A stretch of 64,000 nt of DNA, from assembly GCA_902792985.1 (NCBI GenBank), contig CADBBT010000002.1:21099-85098 (forward strand), written 5' to 3'. This DNA is from Oscillospiraceae bacterium. GTDB taxonomy: Bacteria > Bacillota > Clostridia > Oscillospirales > Acutalibacteraceae. The translations under genes were made by a program, and so were the position numbers. The number at the start of each line of letters is the position of its first letter. Within the stretch, counting starts at the first letter, position 1. Below, one piece after another: positions 1 to 11,110 of the stretch. The notes under the pieces are model-generated. The model was not told the origin of the DNA. It did no database searches and saw only the letters and a list, made by a program, of their open reading frames with translations.

Positions 1-557
1 AGGTCTGCACCGACGTCGGCAGCTTTGGTGTAGATGCCGCCGCCCACACGGGCAAACAGCGCGATGGAGGAAGCGCCGAGCGAAAAGCCGAAGAGCACAT
101 CGGCGTTCTTGGTGATGGCATAGATCACGGAGATGCCGAGCAGACCGAAGCCCGCCACGCAAAGTCCCATGACCGCGCCGCCGGAAAACGCAACGGAAAG
201 CGCTTTCGCCATGCCTTTTTCCTTCGCTGCGTTCGCAGTGCGCACATTCGCGAGCGTTGCCACCTGCATGCCGAAATAGCCGGCCGCGATGGAGAACACG
301 GCACCGACCAGGAAGCACACAGCCTCCAGCCAGTTTTTCAGCGCAAAGCCGATGGCGAGGAAGATCACGGCAATGAAGATGACGATGATCTTGTACTCGG
401 AAAAGAGGAAAGCAGTCGCGCCCTCATGGATGGAAGCGGCGATCTCTTTCATGCGGGCAGTGCCGGGATCCTGCTTTTTGACCTTCAGCGCAAGGAACAG
501 CGCGAAGAGCAGACCGAGCACACTGACAACGGGCACAAGATAGATGAGTTTGTCCAT
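1..557 (-). CDS. hppA: Membrane-bound ion-translocating pyrophosphatase, N-terminal part
   Basis: Reading the minus strand from an ATG at 557 gives MDKLIYLVPVVSVLGLLFAL, a first membrane helix, then further helices and the stretch GGGIYTKAADVGADL that is highly conserved in H+/Na+-pumping pyrophosphatases. The gene runs off the window edge, so only about 185 residues of a usual ~670-700 are present. The family hydrolyses PPi in the cytoplasm and pumps H+ or Na+ outward. The residues that separate K+-dependent Na+ pumps from H+ pumps lie outside the window. An AAAAGGAG ribosome binding site precedes the ATG, and a strong promoter sits at 628-656. Confidence 0.93.
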   Translation of the reverse strand, partial: MDKLIYLVPVVSVLGLLFALFLALKVKKQDPGTARMKEIAASIHEGATAFLFSEYKIIVIFIAVIFLAIGFALKNWLEAVCFLVGAVFSIAAGYFGMQVATLANVRTANAAKEKGMAKALSVAFSGGAVMGLCVAGFGLLGISVIYAITKNADVLFGFSLGASSIALFARVGGGIYTKAADVGAD

Positions 558-4200: not shown

Positions 4201-4297
4201 TTGTCCAACAAATGTCCAGCAAAGAAAAAAATGAATTGTTAATTTTTTTTGAATTCCATGAAATTGTGATTCTTTTTGTTGGACATTTGTTGGACAA
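4201..4297. promoter_or_regulatory. Pair of inverted 23-bp operator-like elements in a divergent promoter region
   Basis: The stretch at 4275-4297 contains TTGTTGGACA twice, 11 bases apart. The stretch at 4201-4223 is the same 23 bases inverted, with one mismatch. Each copy sits against the promoter of one of the two divergent operons. Tandem half-sites one helical turn apart are typical of AraC-type binding. No regulator gene is adjacent. Confidence 0.7.
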
Positions 4298-4308
4298 CAT
4301 GGTATAAA
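4279..4308 (+). promoter_or_regulatory. Promoter of the five-gene oxidoreductase/TIM-barrel operon
   Basis: TTGGAC (4279-4284) and TATAAA (4303-4308) are separated by 18 bases. The -35 box lies inside the repeated operator element, so a bound regulator would either block or replace -35 contacts. Confidence 0.55.
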
Positions 4309-4367
4309 TTAGATAAGCAACATTTTGTTGTTTTTACCATTATCTGTACTTCAAGGAGGAATGTACT

Positions 4368-5522
4368 ATGGCAAACGCAGCCGGATTGGACGCGTTCAAG
4401 GAAATTCACGAAGAAAAAGCAAAAAAAGGCGGAAAGGCCGTCAAGATCGGCATCATCGGCACAGGCTGGATCGCGGAAAGCCATGTTGAATGCTATAAAG
4501 AGATGGACGATGTGGAAATCGTCGCGCTGGCCGATCTCGTGCCGGGCAAAGCAAAGGAATTTGCCGAAAAGTTCGGTCTGGAAAACGCGCACATCTATGA
4601 GAGCGACGAAGCGCTCCTTGCGTCGGAAAAAGACCTTGACGGCGTGAGCATCTGCACCTATAACTGCCAGCACGCCCCCTGCGCCATCCACGCGCTGGAT
4701 GCGGGCATCAACGTTATGCTTGAAAAGCCCTTCACTGTCACGCTCGACGAAGCGATCGAAGTCATGCGCGCCGAAAAGCGCAGCGGCAAGATCCTCACGA
4801 TCGGTTTCCAGCCGCGCATGAGCGAAAACATGAAGATGATCAAAAAGATCGTACAGTCCGGCGAGCTGGGCAAGGTCTATTATCTGCAGTCCGGCGGCGG
4901 CAGACGCCGCGGCATCCCGACCCCGTTCGGCACCACCTTCATCGAAAAAGAAACCGGCGGCATCGGCGCTGTGGGCGATATCGGCTCCTATTCCCTTGAC
5001 ATGCTGCTGGGCGCTGTCGGCTATCCGAAGCCGCTGACCGTTTCCGGTTACACCTCCGCGTTCTTCGGCACAGACCCCGGCTATTATCCCGGCCATCCCG
5101 AATATGCCGACAAATTCGGCGTGGATGATTTTGCCGCCGGCTTCGTGCGTCTGGAAGGCGACATCATCCTCGACTTCCGCATCTCCTGGGCCATGAACAT
5201 GGACACTCCGGGCGACGCGATCATTCTCGGCACCAAGGGCGGTCTGCGCATTCCCTCCACCGACTGCTGGAACGGCGAATTTGACAAGCCGCTGAAGATC
5301 TATAAGACCGTCTGCGGCGAAGAGATCGTTTATGAAGTGCCCCTGAAGCCGACGAAGAACCTCTTCCTGGAAAAGCTGCGCGCCTTTGTGGACGCCATTC
5401 AGGAGGGCGGCAAGCCGACCGTTCCTTCTTCGGAGATCGTGTTCAACCAGGCGATCATCGACGGCATCGTCCGTTCCGCTGCCTGCGGCAAAGAGATCGC
5501 CATTGAGATCCCGGAAGTCTAA
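4368..5522 (+). CDS. Gfo/Idh/MocA family NAD(P)-dependent oxidoreductase
   Basis: 384 residues. After an unusual ~24-residue charged leader, the Rossmann motif GIIGTGWIAESH appears near residue 27. EKPFTV, the EKP active-site motif whose Lys is catalytic, lies around residue 116. A C-terminal alpha/beta substrate domain follows (GGIGAVGDIGSYSLDMLLG). Members oxidise or reduce hydroxyls of sugars, inositols and glycosides. The start is the ATG after AAGGAGG. First gene of an operon with three TIM barrels and a second dehydrogenase (8150-9208). Substrate unknown; inositol or 3-keto-sugar chemistry fits the neighbours. Confidence 0.92.
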   Translation: MANAAGLDAFKEIHEEKAKKGGKAVKIGIIGTGWIAESHVECYKEMDDVEIVALADLVPGKAKEFAEKFGLENAHIYESDEALLASEKDLDGVSICTYNCQHAPCAIHALDAGINVMLEKPFTVTLDEAIEVMRAEKRSGKILTIGFQPRMSENMKMIKKIVQSGELGKVYYLQSGGGRRRGIPTPFGTTFIEKETGGIGAVGDIGSYSLDMLLGAVGYPKPLTVSGYTSAFFGTDPGYYPGHPEYADKFGVDDFAAGFVRLEGDIILDFRISWAMNMDTPGDAIILGTKGGLRIPSTDCWNGEFDKPLKIYKTVCGEEIVYEVPLKPTKNLFLEKLRAFVDAIQEGGKPTVPSSEIVFNQAIIDGIVRSAACGKEIAIEIPEV

Positions 5523-8149: not shown

Positions 8150-9208
8150 ATGAAAGAGATCAAAGTTGCAGTCGTCGGATACGGCGGTATGGGCGGCTGG
8201 CACACGCGCCGCATCTCAGAGATGCAAAAATTCACCCTCGCCGGCGTGTGGGATATTGACCCCGAACGATTGGACGCGGCAAGAGAACGCGGCATTCACA
8301 CCTACGCCTCTTTTGAGGATGTGCTTGCAGACAAAGAGCTGGAGCTTGTGGTCGTTGCCACATGGAACGACGTGCACAAGCCGCTTTGCATTGCGGCGAT
8401 GCGTGCGGGCAAAAATGTGATTTCGGAAAAGCCCGTGGCCATGAGCCTTGCAGAGCTGGATGAAATGATTGCCGTGTCCAAGGAGACCGGAAAGCTCTTC
8501 ACCGTGCATCAGAACCGCCGCTGGGACGATGATTATTTGACCATGCTGAACATTGTCCGAAAAAACAAGCTCGGCAAGGTGTTCCGCATTGAATCGCGTG
8601 TGCAGGGCTCGCGCGGCATTCCCGGCGACTGGCGCAGAGAAAAGGGCCACGGCGGCGGCATGGTGCTCGACTGGGGCGTCCATCTGCTCGACCAGGCACT
8701 GACGATGAACGACAACGTTAAGCTGCAAAGCGTTTGGGCACAGACCACACACATCACCAACGACGAGTGCGACGACGGCTTTTACTGCGAGCTGCAGTTT
8801 GAAAACGGGCTGCGCTACGCTGTGGAAGTCACCACAAACAACTTCATCACCCTGCCGCGCTGGTACATCCTCGGTGAAAACGGCTCCGCCGTGATCGAGG
8901 ACTGGGATCTGAACGGCAAGATGACCCTCGTGCACAACTGGGACAAGATCGACTCCGTTCCCGTCAAGGCAGGCACGGGCATCACAAAGACCATGGCGCC
9001 GCGCACGGACGAAACGATCCATGACGCACCGCTGGAAAAGATCAGCGGCAAATGGGAGCAGTACTACGACAACATCTATGACGTGCTCAGAAACGGCAAA
9101 ACGCAGACGGTCACCCACCGTCAGATGCGCCGCTGCCTGAAGCTGATCGAAGCGATCTTCGAATCGGCCGAAAAGAATCAGGTGGTTGCGTTTGATGAAA
9201 ATAAATAA
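8150..9208 (+). CDS. Gfo/Idh/MocA family NAD(P)-dependent oxidoreductase
   Basis: 352 residues from the ATG at 8150, preferred over an in-frame upstream ATG at 8117 because AGAGGAACC precedes it and the upstream start lies inside the previous gene. VAVVGYGGMGGWH is the dinucleotide-binding motif, SEKPVAM the EKP active-site motif, and MVLDWGVHLLDQAL the substrate-domain Asp/His region. Last gene of the operon, followed by a short-sequence repeat and then a terminator (9293-9318). Two dehydrogenases flanking three isomerase-like barrels suggests oxidation, rearrangement or elimination, and re-reduction. Confidence 0.92.
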   Translation: MKEIKVAVVGYGGMGGWHTRRISEMQKFTLAGVWDIDPERLDAARERGIHTYASFEDVLADKELELVVVATWNDVHKPLCIAAMRAGKNVISEKPVAMSLAELDEMIAVSKETGKLFTVHQNRRWDDDYLTMLNIVRKNKLGKVFRIESRVQGSRGIPGDWRREKGHGGGMVLDWGVHLLDQALTMNDNVKLQSVWAQTTHITNDECDDGFYCELQFENGLRYAVEVTTNNFITLPRWYILGENGSAVIEDWDLNGKMTLVHNWDKIDSVPVKAGTGITKTMAPRTDETIHDAPLEKISGKWEQYYDNIYDVLRNGKTQTVTHRQMRRCLKLIEAIFESAEKNQVVAFDENK

Positions 9209-9209
9209 A

Positions 9210-9240
9210 GTCGAAAGTCGTTAGTCGGTAGTCGTTAGCA
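9210..9240. repeat. Short repeat built on AGTCGTTAGTCGRTAGTC, copy 1
   Basis: Begins right after the stop codon at 9206-9208 and consists of imperfect repeats of AGTCGTT/AGTCGGT. An inverted copy starts at the stop codon of the aminopeptidase gene at 12538. Function unknown. Confidence 0.7.
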
Positions 9241-9292
9241 TGTGGAATAGCCGTGCGCGTTTTTTGCGGCGGCATGAAATGAAAATCAATGT

Positions 9293-9318
9293 GGGCGGCT
9301 GTGAGCCGCCCGTTTTTT
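9293..9318 (+). terminator. Rho-independent terminator of the oxidoreductase operon
   Basis: GGGCGGCT (9293-9300), a 3-base loop, AGCCGCCC (9304-9311), then G and a run of six T. A perfect eight-base GC-rich stem. Confidence 0.92.
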
Positions 9319-9327
9319 GTGGAAAGC

Positions 9328-9356
9328 TTGACTTCTTTCGGAGAATATGATAAAGT
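9328..9356 (+). promoter_or_regulatory. Candidate promoter for the 9421 leader and surface-protein gene
   Basis: TTGACT (9328-9333), a 17-base spacer and TAAAGT (9351-9356). The -35 box is good and the -10 moderate. Transcription would start near 9363 and give a leader of about 250 bases. Confidence 0.5.
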
Positions 9357-9420
9357 ATAGGTGCCAAACAAAAAAGTGAAGCTTATTTCACAGATATTTT
9401 TATGCATGCATGATATAAAC

Positions 9421-9565
9421 GTGCAGGAGGTGCAACCTAATAAAAAGGTGCATCTGTTATCTCCTGCGCGCACACTTTGTCATGCTGTGCAATAAGCTGA
9501 GATCTTTTTTGTTTGGCGACGAAATGAGATGCACTTTTTATGCGTCTCATATGAGGCGCTTTTTT
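9421..9565 (+). promoter_or_regulatory. Structured leader with competing antiterminator and terminator hairpins (riboswitch-like)
   Basis: A terminator forms from GCGTCTC (9542-9548) and GAGGCGC (9553-9559), followed by six T. An alternative 10-base-pair helix uses ATGAGATGCA (9524-9533) with TGCGTCTCAT (9541-9550) and would destroy it. GTGCATCT (9448-9455) can pair with AGATGCAC (9527-9534) and free the terminator. Upstream, GCAGGAG (9423-9429) pairs with CTCCTGC (9461-9467), enclosing a smaller hairpin. This is the architecture of a transcriptional riboswitch or protein-controlled attenuator. I cannot match the upstream part to a known aptamer class. Confidence 0.7.
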
Positions 9566-9610
9566 GTTGCCTCAAAACTCTATTTTATTTCCGAAAGGAG
9601 AAAGTCAAAC

Positions 9611-11110
9611 ATGAAAAAAGTCCGAAAACAAACAAAAAGAGCGCTGCCTGTTTTGCTGGCGGTGCTGATGGTCGTGCTGGCCATGCCAGTGGCGGGGTTT
9701 GCTGGTATTGAACTGTTCCCGAAGGCTCAGGCGTATAGCGTTGGTGATCACATTCAATTTGGCACCTACCCACAAACGCGCATTGACGAAACAACCGCAC
9801 TGAAAAACGCTGCGAACGCTGCAACATGGAAAAGCTATAATTATTTCACTGGCACAGGTTCATGGAGCGACGGCAACATGCGGTCGAGCGATTACATGCA
9901 ATTTGCAGATTTTTTCTGCAACGGAATAAAGTATCGTGCAGTGACGTTTTCCGATTATCGCCCGAGTAATACAGGATATCAATCCGACAGAACCTATCAG
10001 GATGACAACGGTTATGCGTCAAATCATGTTTATTATTTCAAATATGAGCCGCTGACGTGGCGGATTCTTGATCCGTCTATCGGCTATATCATGTGTGAAA
10101 ATCTCATTGATTCCCAAGCCTATCAGAATACGATTTGCTATGCGAATAACATATACTGGAGATGGATGGGTTCGGATTTCTATGCCAACGATTACGCAAC
10201 ATCCTCTATCCGCAACTGGCTGAACTATGATTTTTATGAAACGGCATTCACCACAGGTCAAAAGGCAAAAATCAAAACGACAGCACTGAACAACGACGCC
10301 TATGATCCCTTGTCGTATGGAAACCCGAATTATCCGCAGTACAACAGCAACCCCACGAACGACAAAATCTTCCTGCTGTCTTATCCAGATGCCATCAATC
10401 CTGCCTATGGCTTCTCATCCTCCTCTGCTACATTCGATGCCGCAAGAAAGGCAAAAGGGACGGACTATGCAAAATGCCAGGGACTTTACGTCTATAGTGA
10501 CACCACCTCTACGGACAACGGCAATTCCGTGTGGTGGCTACGGTCGCCCGGCAACTATTCCCATTTTGTATGCCCTGTCCGTCACAATGGTGAGGCACGC
10601 GGCAGCAACGATGTCAGTCGCACCTATTATGGAATTCGTCCAGCCTGCAATCTTTCAAATTTGAAATCTGACATTCTCCAATCTGATCTTTTGTTTTCCA
10701 GTGGTACGTACGAACATCAGCCGGGAGAGCCGCTTATTGAAAACGAAGCTGCCGCAACGTGCAAAGCGAAAGGAAGCTATGACGAAGTAATCTATTGTAT
10801 CAAGTGCGGTGACGAACTCTCAAGAACACCGCATGAAACTGCAACAAAACCTCATACGCCTGCACCGGCTGTACGTGAAAACGTTGTTCCTGCGTCAGAC
10901 AATCGCGCCGGCAGCTATGACGAGGTTGTCTATTGCTCTGTTTGCAAAACGGAACTCAGCCGCACGCAAGTGACGATGGAGCCTTTGAATCCACCGAGCA
11001 CTGAGCCGGTTCAGCCCGCCCAAGACGAAGCTCCCACGCAAAACCTCAACTTCTTCCAGCGCATCATCGAATGGTTCCGCAACCTATTTGCCCGCCTGTT
11101 CGGCAGATGA
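9611..11110 (+). CDS. Secreted DUF6273 surface protein with C-terminal CxxC repeats and amphipathic tail
   Basis: 499 residues from the ATG at 9611, behind GAAAGGAG. A start further upstream at 9482 would place the leader hairpins inside the coding region. Residues 1-~35 are a signal peptide. A DUF6273 domain (~40-360) begins GDHIQFGTYPQTRID and ends with WWLRSPG and YYGIRPACNL, the family signature. Two repeats follow with the form GSYDEVxYCxxCxxELSRT, each with a CxxC pair. The last 20 residues, NFFQRIIEWFRNLFARLFGR, form an aromatic/basic amphipathic helix. Likely cell-surface; molecular role unknown. Expression is probably controlled by the leader at 9421-9565. Confidence 0.88.
   Translation: MKKVRKQTKRALPVLLAVLMVVLAMPVAGFAGIELFPKAQAYSVGDHIQFGTYPQTRIDETTALKNAANAATWKSYNYFTGTGSWSDGNMRSSDYMQFADFFCNGIKYRAVTFSDYRPSNTGYQSDRTYQDDNGYASNHVYYFKYEPLTWRILDPSIGYIMCENLIDSQAYQNTICYANNIYWRWMGSDFYANDYATSSIRNWLNYDFYETAFTTGQKAKIKTTALNNDAYDPLSYGNPNYPQYNSNPTNDKIFLLSYPDAINPAYGFSSSSATFDAARKAKGTDYAKCQGLYVYSDTTSTDNGNSVWWLRSPGNYSHFVCPVRHNGEARGSNDVSRTYYGIRPACNLSNLKSDILQSDLLFSSGTYEHQPGEPLIENEAAATCKAKGSYDEVIYCIKCGDELSRTPHETATKPHTPAPAVRENVVPASDNRAGSYDEVVYCSVCKTELSRTQVTMEPLNPPSTEPVQPAQDEAPTQNLNFFQRIIEWFRNLFARLFGR

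Follow-up and report, generated by a model that had tools for sequence, protein, structure and literature searches.

The RNA element at positions 9361-9573 (+ strand) of the window, the 64,000-nucleotide stretch of Oscillospiraceae DNA that was analysed, is, with a probability of about 0.7 judged from sequence comparison, an attenuator that acts in cis on transcription and represents an RNA family not catalogued before. In the copies compared this family lies behind a predicted promoter and in front of accessory genes of many kinds, and it is apparently large, occurring in gut and rumen Clostridia and often in many copies per genome.

Anatomy of the leader

A promoter-like site (-35 TTGACT, 17-nt spacer, -10 TAAAGT) is present at 9328-9356 on the + strand. 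Given the usual spacing between -10 and +1, which locates the transcription start, the predicted +1 is 9363, the seventh base past the -10 hexamer. Here begins a long-range helix, P1, of 14 perfect pairs (9363-9376/9504-9517, 127 nt between the strands), whose 5' strand is placed by complementarity and promoter spacing and whose 3' strand by complementarity and covariation in the family. Within P1 lies a long stem, P2, taken from the minimum-energy fold only, with lower parts at 9380-9387/9491-9498 and 9389-9392/9486-9489 (5' side 9380-9392) and upper parts at 9408-9415/9478-9485 and 9420-9429/9461-9470 (5' side 9408-9429). It is capped by the apical hairpin P3 at 9430-9453 (9430-9434/9449-9453 and 9436-9438/9446-9448), which is seen in the fold and covaries in the family.

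Three further strands compete. Strand X (9443-9455), which overlaps the 3' arm of P3, can pair with strand Y (9527-9539) over 13 bp (X:Y, -17.9 kcal/mol), while Y, as part of 9524-9533, can pair instead with strand Z (9541-9550) to form a 10-bp antiterminator with one G-T pair (Y:Z, -13.0 kcal/mol alone); these strands are placed by duplex energy and family pairing, and the antiterminator is in addition present in the minimum-energy fold of 9421-9580 (z = -4.87, with none of 200 shuffles as stable). Z in turn overlaps the 5' arm of a predicted intrinsic terminator at 9542-9565 (stem 9542-9548/9553-9559, 4-nt loop, T-run 9560-9565). As judged from sequence patterns and family conservation, this terminator lies between the promoter and the putatively controlled gene at 9611-11110 (+), which begins 37 nt past the element and encodes a 499-aa DUF6273 protein with a signal-peptide-like start. 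The original prediction had named the terminator, the antiterminator and 9448-9455 as a competitor for the 5' strand of the latter, all of which are confirmed here, the competitor as part of the longer X:Y helix. It had also described a folded upstream region of about 100 bases; the region in front of the antiterminator is folded, but it starts at 9363 and measures about 155 nt, and P1 had been missed.

It is scarcely credible that the site does no more than terminate the upstream gene and is complementary to its surroundings by chance. Terminator-like sites do abound near the leader (14 in 3 kb, 3.5 expected), but the upstream oxidoreductase gene, which ends at 9208, is already followed by a terminator-like site at 9291-9313, a promoter-like site intervenes, and in our view the family-wide pairing described below refutes this explanation. 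Between the oxidoreductase gene and its terminator-like site there is a short direct repeat (9209-9236, AGTCGNNAGTCGTT). Elsewhere in the window a nested inverted repeat of TGTCCAACAAA units, with 28-nt arms that are 89% complementary and an 11-nt perfect pair, occupies 4201-4297, upstream of a gene starting at 4368; the two other matches of the family model in the window, of about 16 bits each at 4201-4336, are probably due to composition.

Helices maintained within each copy

Further copies of the leader were found in the window's own genome by BLAST, and a covariance model of the 3' half (R1), built from five copies, matched at a loose threshold (E ≤0.1) in 35 of 59 genomes, the own genome included. 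The 60 regions fetched, together with the own copies, gave 70 members with a common plan: promoter, P1 5' strand, a variable stem and an apical hairpin with an A-rich 3' arm, followed by the P1 3' strand, then a strand similar to the hairpin's 5' arm, and lastly the terminator. A full-length covariance model (R2) was built from 28 short members (A2, MAFFT alignment), and matches the window element with 55.0 bits (E 1.2e-8). Two further alignments were assessed: A3, of 108 matches (106 distinct rows), which shares one locus with the A2 set (L132 = L115, genome G058), and A4, which includes the 28 A2 members and is therefore not independent of R2. The counts for P1, P3 and the terminator lean to the model, while X:Y and Y:Z are absent from it.

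For the 11-nt P1 3' strands the best complement in the member's own upstream sequence had a mean score of 23.9; the means were 13.0 when the upstream came from a member whose P1 differs and 11.4 when it was shuffled. The complement adjoins the promoter in 67 of the 70 members; in L096, L119 and L127, where the ungapped match was interrupted by a shift of one base, P1 was placed manually. The A2 sequences were cut two bases before P1 and their alignment, which shows compensatory P1 columns (e.g. CG16/UA11 and CG15/GC10/AU2), is not blind to P1; the R2 hits and the promoter spacing are blind to its placement. In A3 P1 is 98.0% paired, all 11 pairs are changed on both sides in some member, and pair 5-191 occurs as GC (47), CG (40), UA (14) and AU (5) with zero mismatches over the 106 distinct rows. 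The modelled helices together are 95.8% paired in A3, with a covariation score of 0.482 against 0.189 when shuffled and at most 0.092 when slid, and 95.1% paired in A4. P3 and the terminator covary in both alignments, the terminator stem being 99.2% (A3) and 99.6% (A4) paired.

For the two helices outside the model the columns speak less evenly. For X:Y the paired fraction in A3 is 90.2%, its score of 0.370 compares with 0.238 when shuffled and a maximum of 0.183 when slid, and 144 cells are changed on both sides compared with 62 in shuffles, although the number of pairs so changed (10) is not above shuffles (239 of 500 as high). In A4 X:Y is 84.6% paired (0.188, against 0.158 shuffled and 0.090 slid), and here only 4 of 500 shuffles have as many pairs changed on both sides. 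Y:Z is 80.2% paired in A3 (0.279 against 0.244 shuffled) and 72.8% in A4, where one slid version is nearly equal (0.207 against 0.218); neither its pairs changed on both sides (404 of 500 shuffles as high in A3, 271 in A4) nor its further pair types (303 and 109 of 500) exceed shuffles. The covariation that the original prediction asked to see in homologous leaders is thus present, the helices recurring with compensatory changes, and the antiterminator is the weakest of them by columns.

Because insertions and deletions blur the columns, we compared the duplex energy of each strand with its own partner and with partners from other members. Over 104 A3 members the own and foreign means were -16.1 and -9.3 kcal/mol for P1, -12.0 and -7.1 for X:Y, and -12.7 and -9.6 for Y:Z. 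The own partner was better than the mean foreign partner in 103/104 (A3) and 92/92 (A4) members for P1, in 104/104 and 88/92 for X:Y, and in 93/104 and 81/92 for Y:Z. In each of the six cases none of 2000 permutations reached the observed mean, and as the permutation ignores kinship these are not exact probabilities. P1, P3, X:Y, Y:Z and the terminator (Z:W) are shown by these comparisons to be maintained within each copy, and a mutually exclusive antiterminator appears to have been maintained by evolution according to the own-versus-foreign test, its column-wise support being weaker.

Mean energies over 105 members were -7.2 kcal/mol for P3, -12.0 for X:Y, -12.2 for Y:Z, -16.0 for the terminator and -16.1 for P1, with X:Y stabler than P3 in 93/105; the terminator is stabler than the antiterminator in 94/105, whereas in the window copy the antiterminator is slightly the stabler (-13.0 against -11.4 kcal/mol). 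Nested folding of 106 members in three stages kept P1 (mean pair probability 0.94-0.95) and gave X:Y at most 0.01, which is uninformative as a test of X:Y because this helix crosses P1 and the energy model does not treat pseudoknots. The nested folding, the mean energies and the comparison of own and foreign partners used the members with all segments: 106, 105, and 104 plus 92 respectively.

Since strands are shared, only some of X:Y, Y:Z and Z:W can coexist, and together with the covariation in homologues this supports the mutually exclusive helices and attenuation logic first proposed from the window. As P1 and X:Y are both conserved, the simplest reading is that X:Y replaces P3 and forms a pseudoknot with P1. 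Transcription from a sigma-A-type promoter at fixed distance would start the RNA at the first base of P1. While X is kept in P3, Y would pair with Z, the terminator would be blocked and the gene transcribed; if X leaves P3 and takes Y as its partner, perhaps with the bulge on its 3' side as a toehold, Z would be left free, the terminator would form and transcription would stop at about +200. A cellular signal acting on the P1-P2-P3 domain would tip this balance.

Promoter, tandem units and distribution

From 216 rows four were dropped (two reverse-strand, one weak at 34.6 bits and one cut by the locus end), and 208 distinct copies were kept. A promoter of the form TTGNNN-16..18-TANNNT stands at the expected place in 175 of these, compared with 5.6% for shuffled upstreams; 164 of the 175 have a 17-nt spacer and 163 have exactly 4 nt between the -10 and the start of the match. 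The usual -10/+1 distance would put the first transcribed base at model position 3, where the pair is G-C or A-U. Promoter and RNA, as far as these spacings indicate, are locked together.

Eleven loci have two to four complete tandem units; 26 of the 27 units have a recognised promoter and the gaps measure 34-149 nt. These gaps (in L163, L143, L164, L172, L225, L093, L128, L130, L099, L129 and L239) leave room at most for a very small gene, and L130 holds a fifth copy cut by the locus end. Tandem units with their own promoters would suit a stable small-RNA gene, in which the terminated RNA of about 200 nt is itself the product and the downstream gene is reached occasionally, as would a transcript whose blunt 5' helix begins at the predicted +1 and which has a terminator at its end. 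We nevertheless consider this improbable, for a gene start (ribosome-binding site; at least 60 aa or open) follows within 140 nt on the same strand in 159/207 copies and in the divergent direction in 20/205, and a maintained antiterminator has no obvious role in such a gene.

R2 matches were found in at least 29 of 34 genomes of the genus, in at least 84 of 245 genomes and 52 of 127 genera of the order, and in at least 50 of 196 genomes and 36 of 132 genera of the class, the own genome being included each time. Of the 50 carriers listed in the class sample, 48 are outside the listed members of the order. In the phylum-wide sample the RNA was present in 1 of 199 genomes, the window's own; R1 and R2 sampling was confined to this phylum. 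The own genome has 10 copies and another (G030) at least 27, and one copy (93.1 bits) was found in a human-faecal contig.

A 2017 paper reportedly presented 224 candidate RNAs. Rfam 15 has no relevant match to the element, in keeping with the original prediction, which could match no known aptamer to it. At the gathering cut-off there were no matches in the 64-kb window, and at 38 homologue loci only an LSU rRNA end (L119) and a tRNA (L259), both outside the leader. A permissive search of 9320-9640 reached 18.5 bits at best against a cut-off of 70, and at seven homologue loci it gave only sub-cut-off sRNA and miRNA matches; the Rfam searches thus returned none of the T-box or riboswitch matches that would have explained the leader away. 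No description of this RNA was found in the portions consulted of the literature, including PMC11109978, PMC8632094 and PMC2965389.

Viral and plasmid origins were considered and rejected, as two exact patterns had no match in viral contigs and one member used as a BLAST query had none in plasmids. The same query matched two unannotated records filed as 'Bacteriophage sp.', and in one of these, MT835845.1, the RNA lies in front of a lipoprotein-like frame. This record reads as a bacterial contig filed as phage, because of its Clp-ATPase-like, ComEC-like and YicC-like frames (named by reading of the frames).

Downstream genes and the putative signal

Among the 208 distinct copies, 166 are followed within 140 nt by a gene start with a ribosome-binding site, 16 by another copy and 25 by neither, and one is at a contig edge. 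Protein scans covered 130 of the 166 downstream proteins, chosen by hand so as to omit near-duplicates and the last entries of the list. Among them 75 Pfam families occur, the largest being BspA-type repeats (21), with CHAP (5), DUF6273 (4) and DUF6809 (4) among the others, and no common pathway is apparent in this set. DUF6273 surface proteins, suggested from the window as the target class, do not hold as such: they are 4 of the 130, and only two of the six DUF6273 places in the genome are in a gene behind a copy. Nor was a common target found in defence genes (18 PADLOC families, each represented by a single one of the 130 proteins) or phage families (the commonest PHROGs, 21 and 20 of 130, have no function assigned, and Sie-like proteins number 3); the two commonest PHROGs may be the repeat proteins. 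A home-made, rough heuristic assigns a hydrophobic N-terminus to 93/166 and a lipobox to 26/166. In appearance the downstream set is accessory, mixed and rich in exported proteins, these counts being given without a background. The exported-type proteins of L021, L023 and the window (9611-11110) share their signal-peptide region, and the ends of the first two closely resemble each other (FFHSILALFGLRK and FFHSILALFGLHK), a similar hydrophobic/basic tail being present in the window protein. Recurrent proteins of 77-78 aa are encoded directly behind the RNA in L151, L249, L251, L257 and L259, from several genomes of the order and class samples.

The mixture of targets bears on what might be sensed. 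In a small-molecule riboswitch P1-P2-P3 and the X:Y pseudoknot would make a pocket, and a metabolite or second messenger would stabilise X:Y and turn the gene off. The architecture of pseudoknot and terminator is appropriate to this, as are conserved unpaired positions outside the switching strands, namely the P3 loop GGUA (where a letter is present, G in 90/98 rows and the last A in 94/95), a UU in the bulge that follows X and a CAA behind P1. Such positions are however few and scattered, P2 varies in length and sequence, and the downstream genes have no common pathway, so that we regard a riboswitch as possible but rather unlikely. With so little strong conservation among the unpaired positions, an attenuator that senses a protein or an RNA, or one that works by kinetics alone, is no less possible than a metabolite riboswitch.

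An RNA-binding protein that sets X:Y against Y:Z by binding P3 or the bulge, and thereby governs an accessory regulon, is a tenable if still doubtful explanation. The mixture of secreted, lipoprotein-like and small unknown proteins and the many copies (at least 27 in one genome) would suit a single shared regulator, but the two general candidates tried, CsrA and Hfq, do not fit. Among the matches listed, and subject to confounding by kinship, CsrA is present in 0/50 RNA-bearing and 68/146 RNA-free genomes of the class and Hfq in 15/50 and 79/146, while the window's own genome, at about 89% completeness, yielded neither. Their presence across these genomes does not support either as partner.

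ZTP and c-di-GMP-II riboswitches have pseudoknots and control terminators, and like them the present RNA would share a long-range pseudoknot strand with its expression platform and act on a terminator; unlike them it has no Rfam match, a P1 beginning at the predicted +1, no evident compact conserved core and unrelated accessory targets. T-box leaders are clostridial and choose between antiterminator and terminator, as this leader would, but it has no Rfam T-box match and there is no amino-acid theme among the 25 of the 75 target families that were listed. The chain of competing helices P3, X:Y, Y:Z and Z:W resembles the successive alternative strands of trp-type attenuators, from which the leader differs in that the frame open through its 3' part is not the same in the two copies compared by eye. 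In the pT181 and pIP501 plasmid antisense-RNA attenuators strand pairing likewise decides whether the terminator forms, whereas here the pairing partner is within the same RNA.

By its anatomy, then, the RNA would work like an attenuator. The same-strand gene bias, the fixed promoter distance, the own-strand pairing and the specificity in the phylum-wide sample (1/199) speak for this. Against it, X:Y needs a pseudoknot, and with a P2 as long as that of the window Y and X are far apart if the stem does not bend; moreover 25/207 copies are accompanied neither by a clear gene nor by a further copy. In our view the likeliest signal is a factor common to many accessory genes, either a bound protein or a signalling molecule, rather than the substrate of one pathway. 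We tentatively suggest, as an idea that may well prove wrong, that the family is a new RNA class, observed to date in Clostridia only, in which promoter and switch together make a portable cassette. A 5'-terminal pseudoknot starting at +1 would read one common cellular signal and so control accessory genes that change from case to case, encoding surface proteins, lipoproteins and small proteins; in tandem cassettes with no genes between them the terminated RNAs would serve in addition as decoys or trans-acting RNAs for that same signal.

About one in four of the sampled class genomes (at least 50 of 196) carries this structured RNA family, which reaches at least 27 copies in one genome and, as far as tested, has no match in Rfam 15. 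If it is a true switch, it would mark out, in Clostridia of gut and rumen, a regulon made up of surface and accessory proteins, for which the question is what is sensed; with copies so numerous, any cultured carrier would serve to test it.
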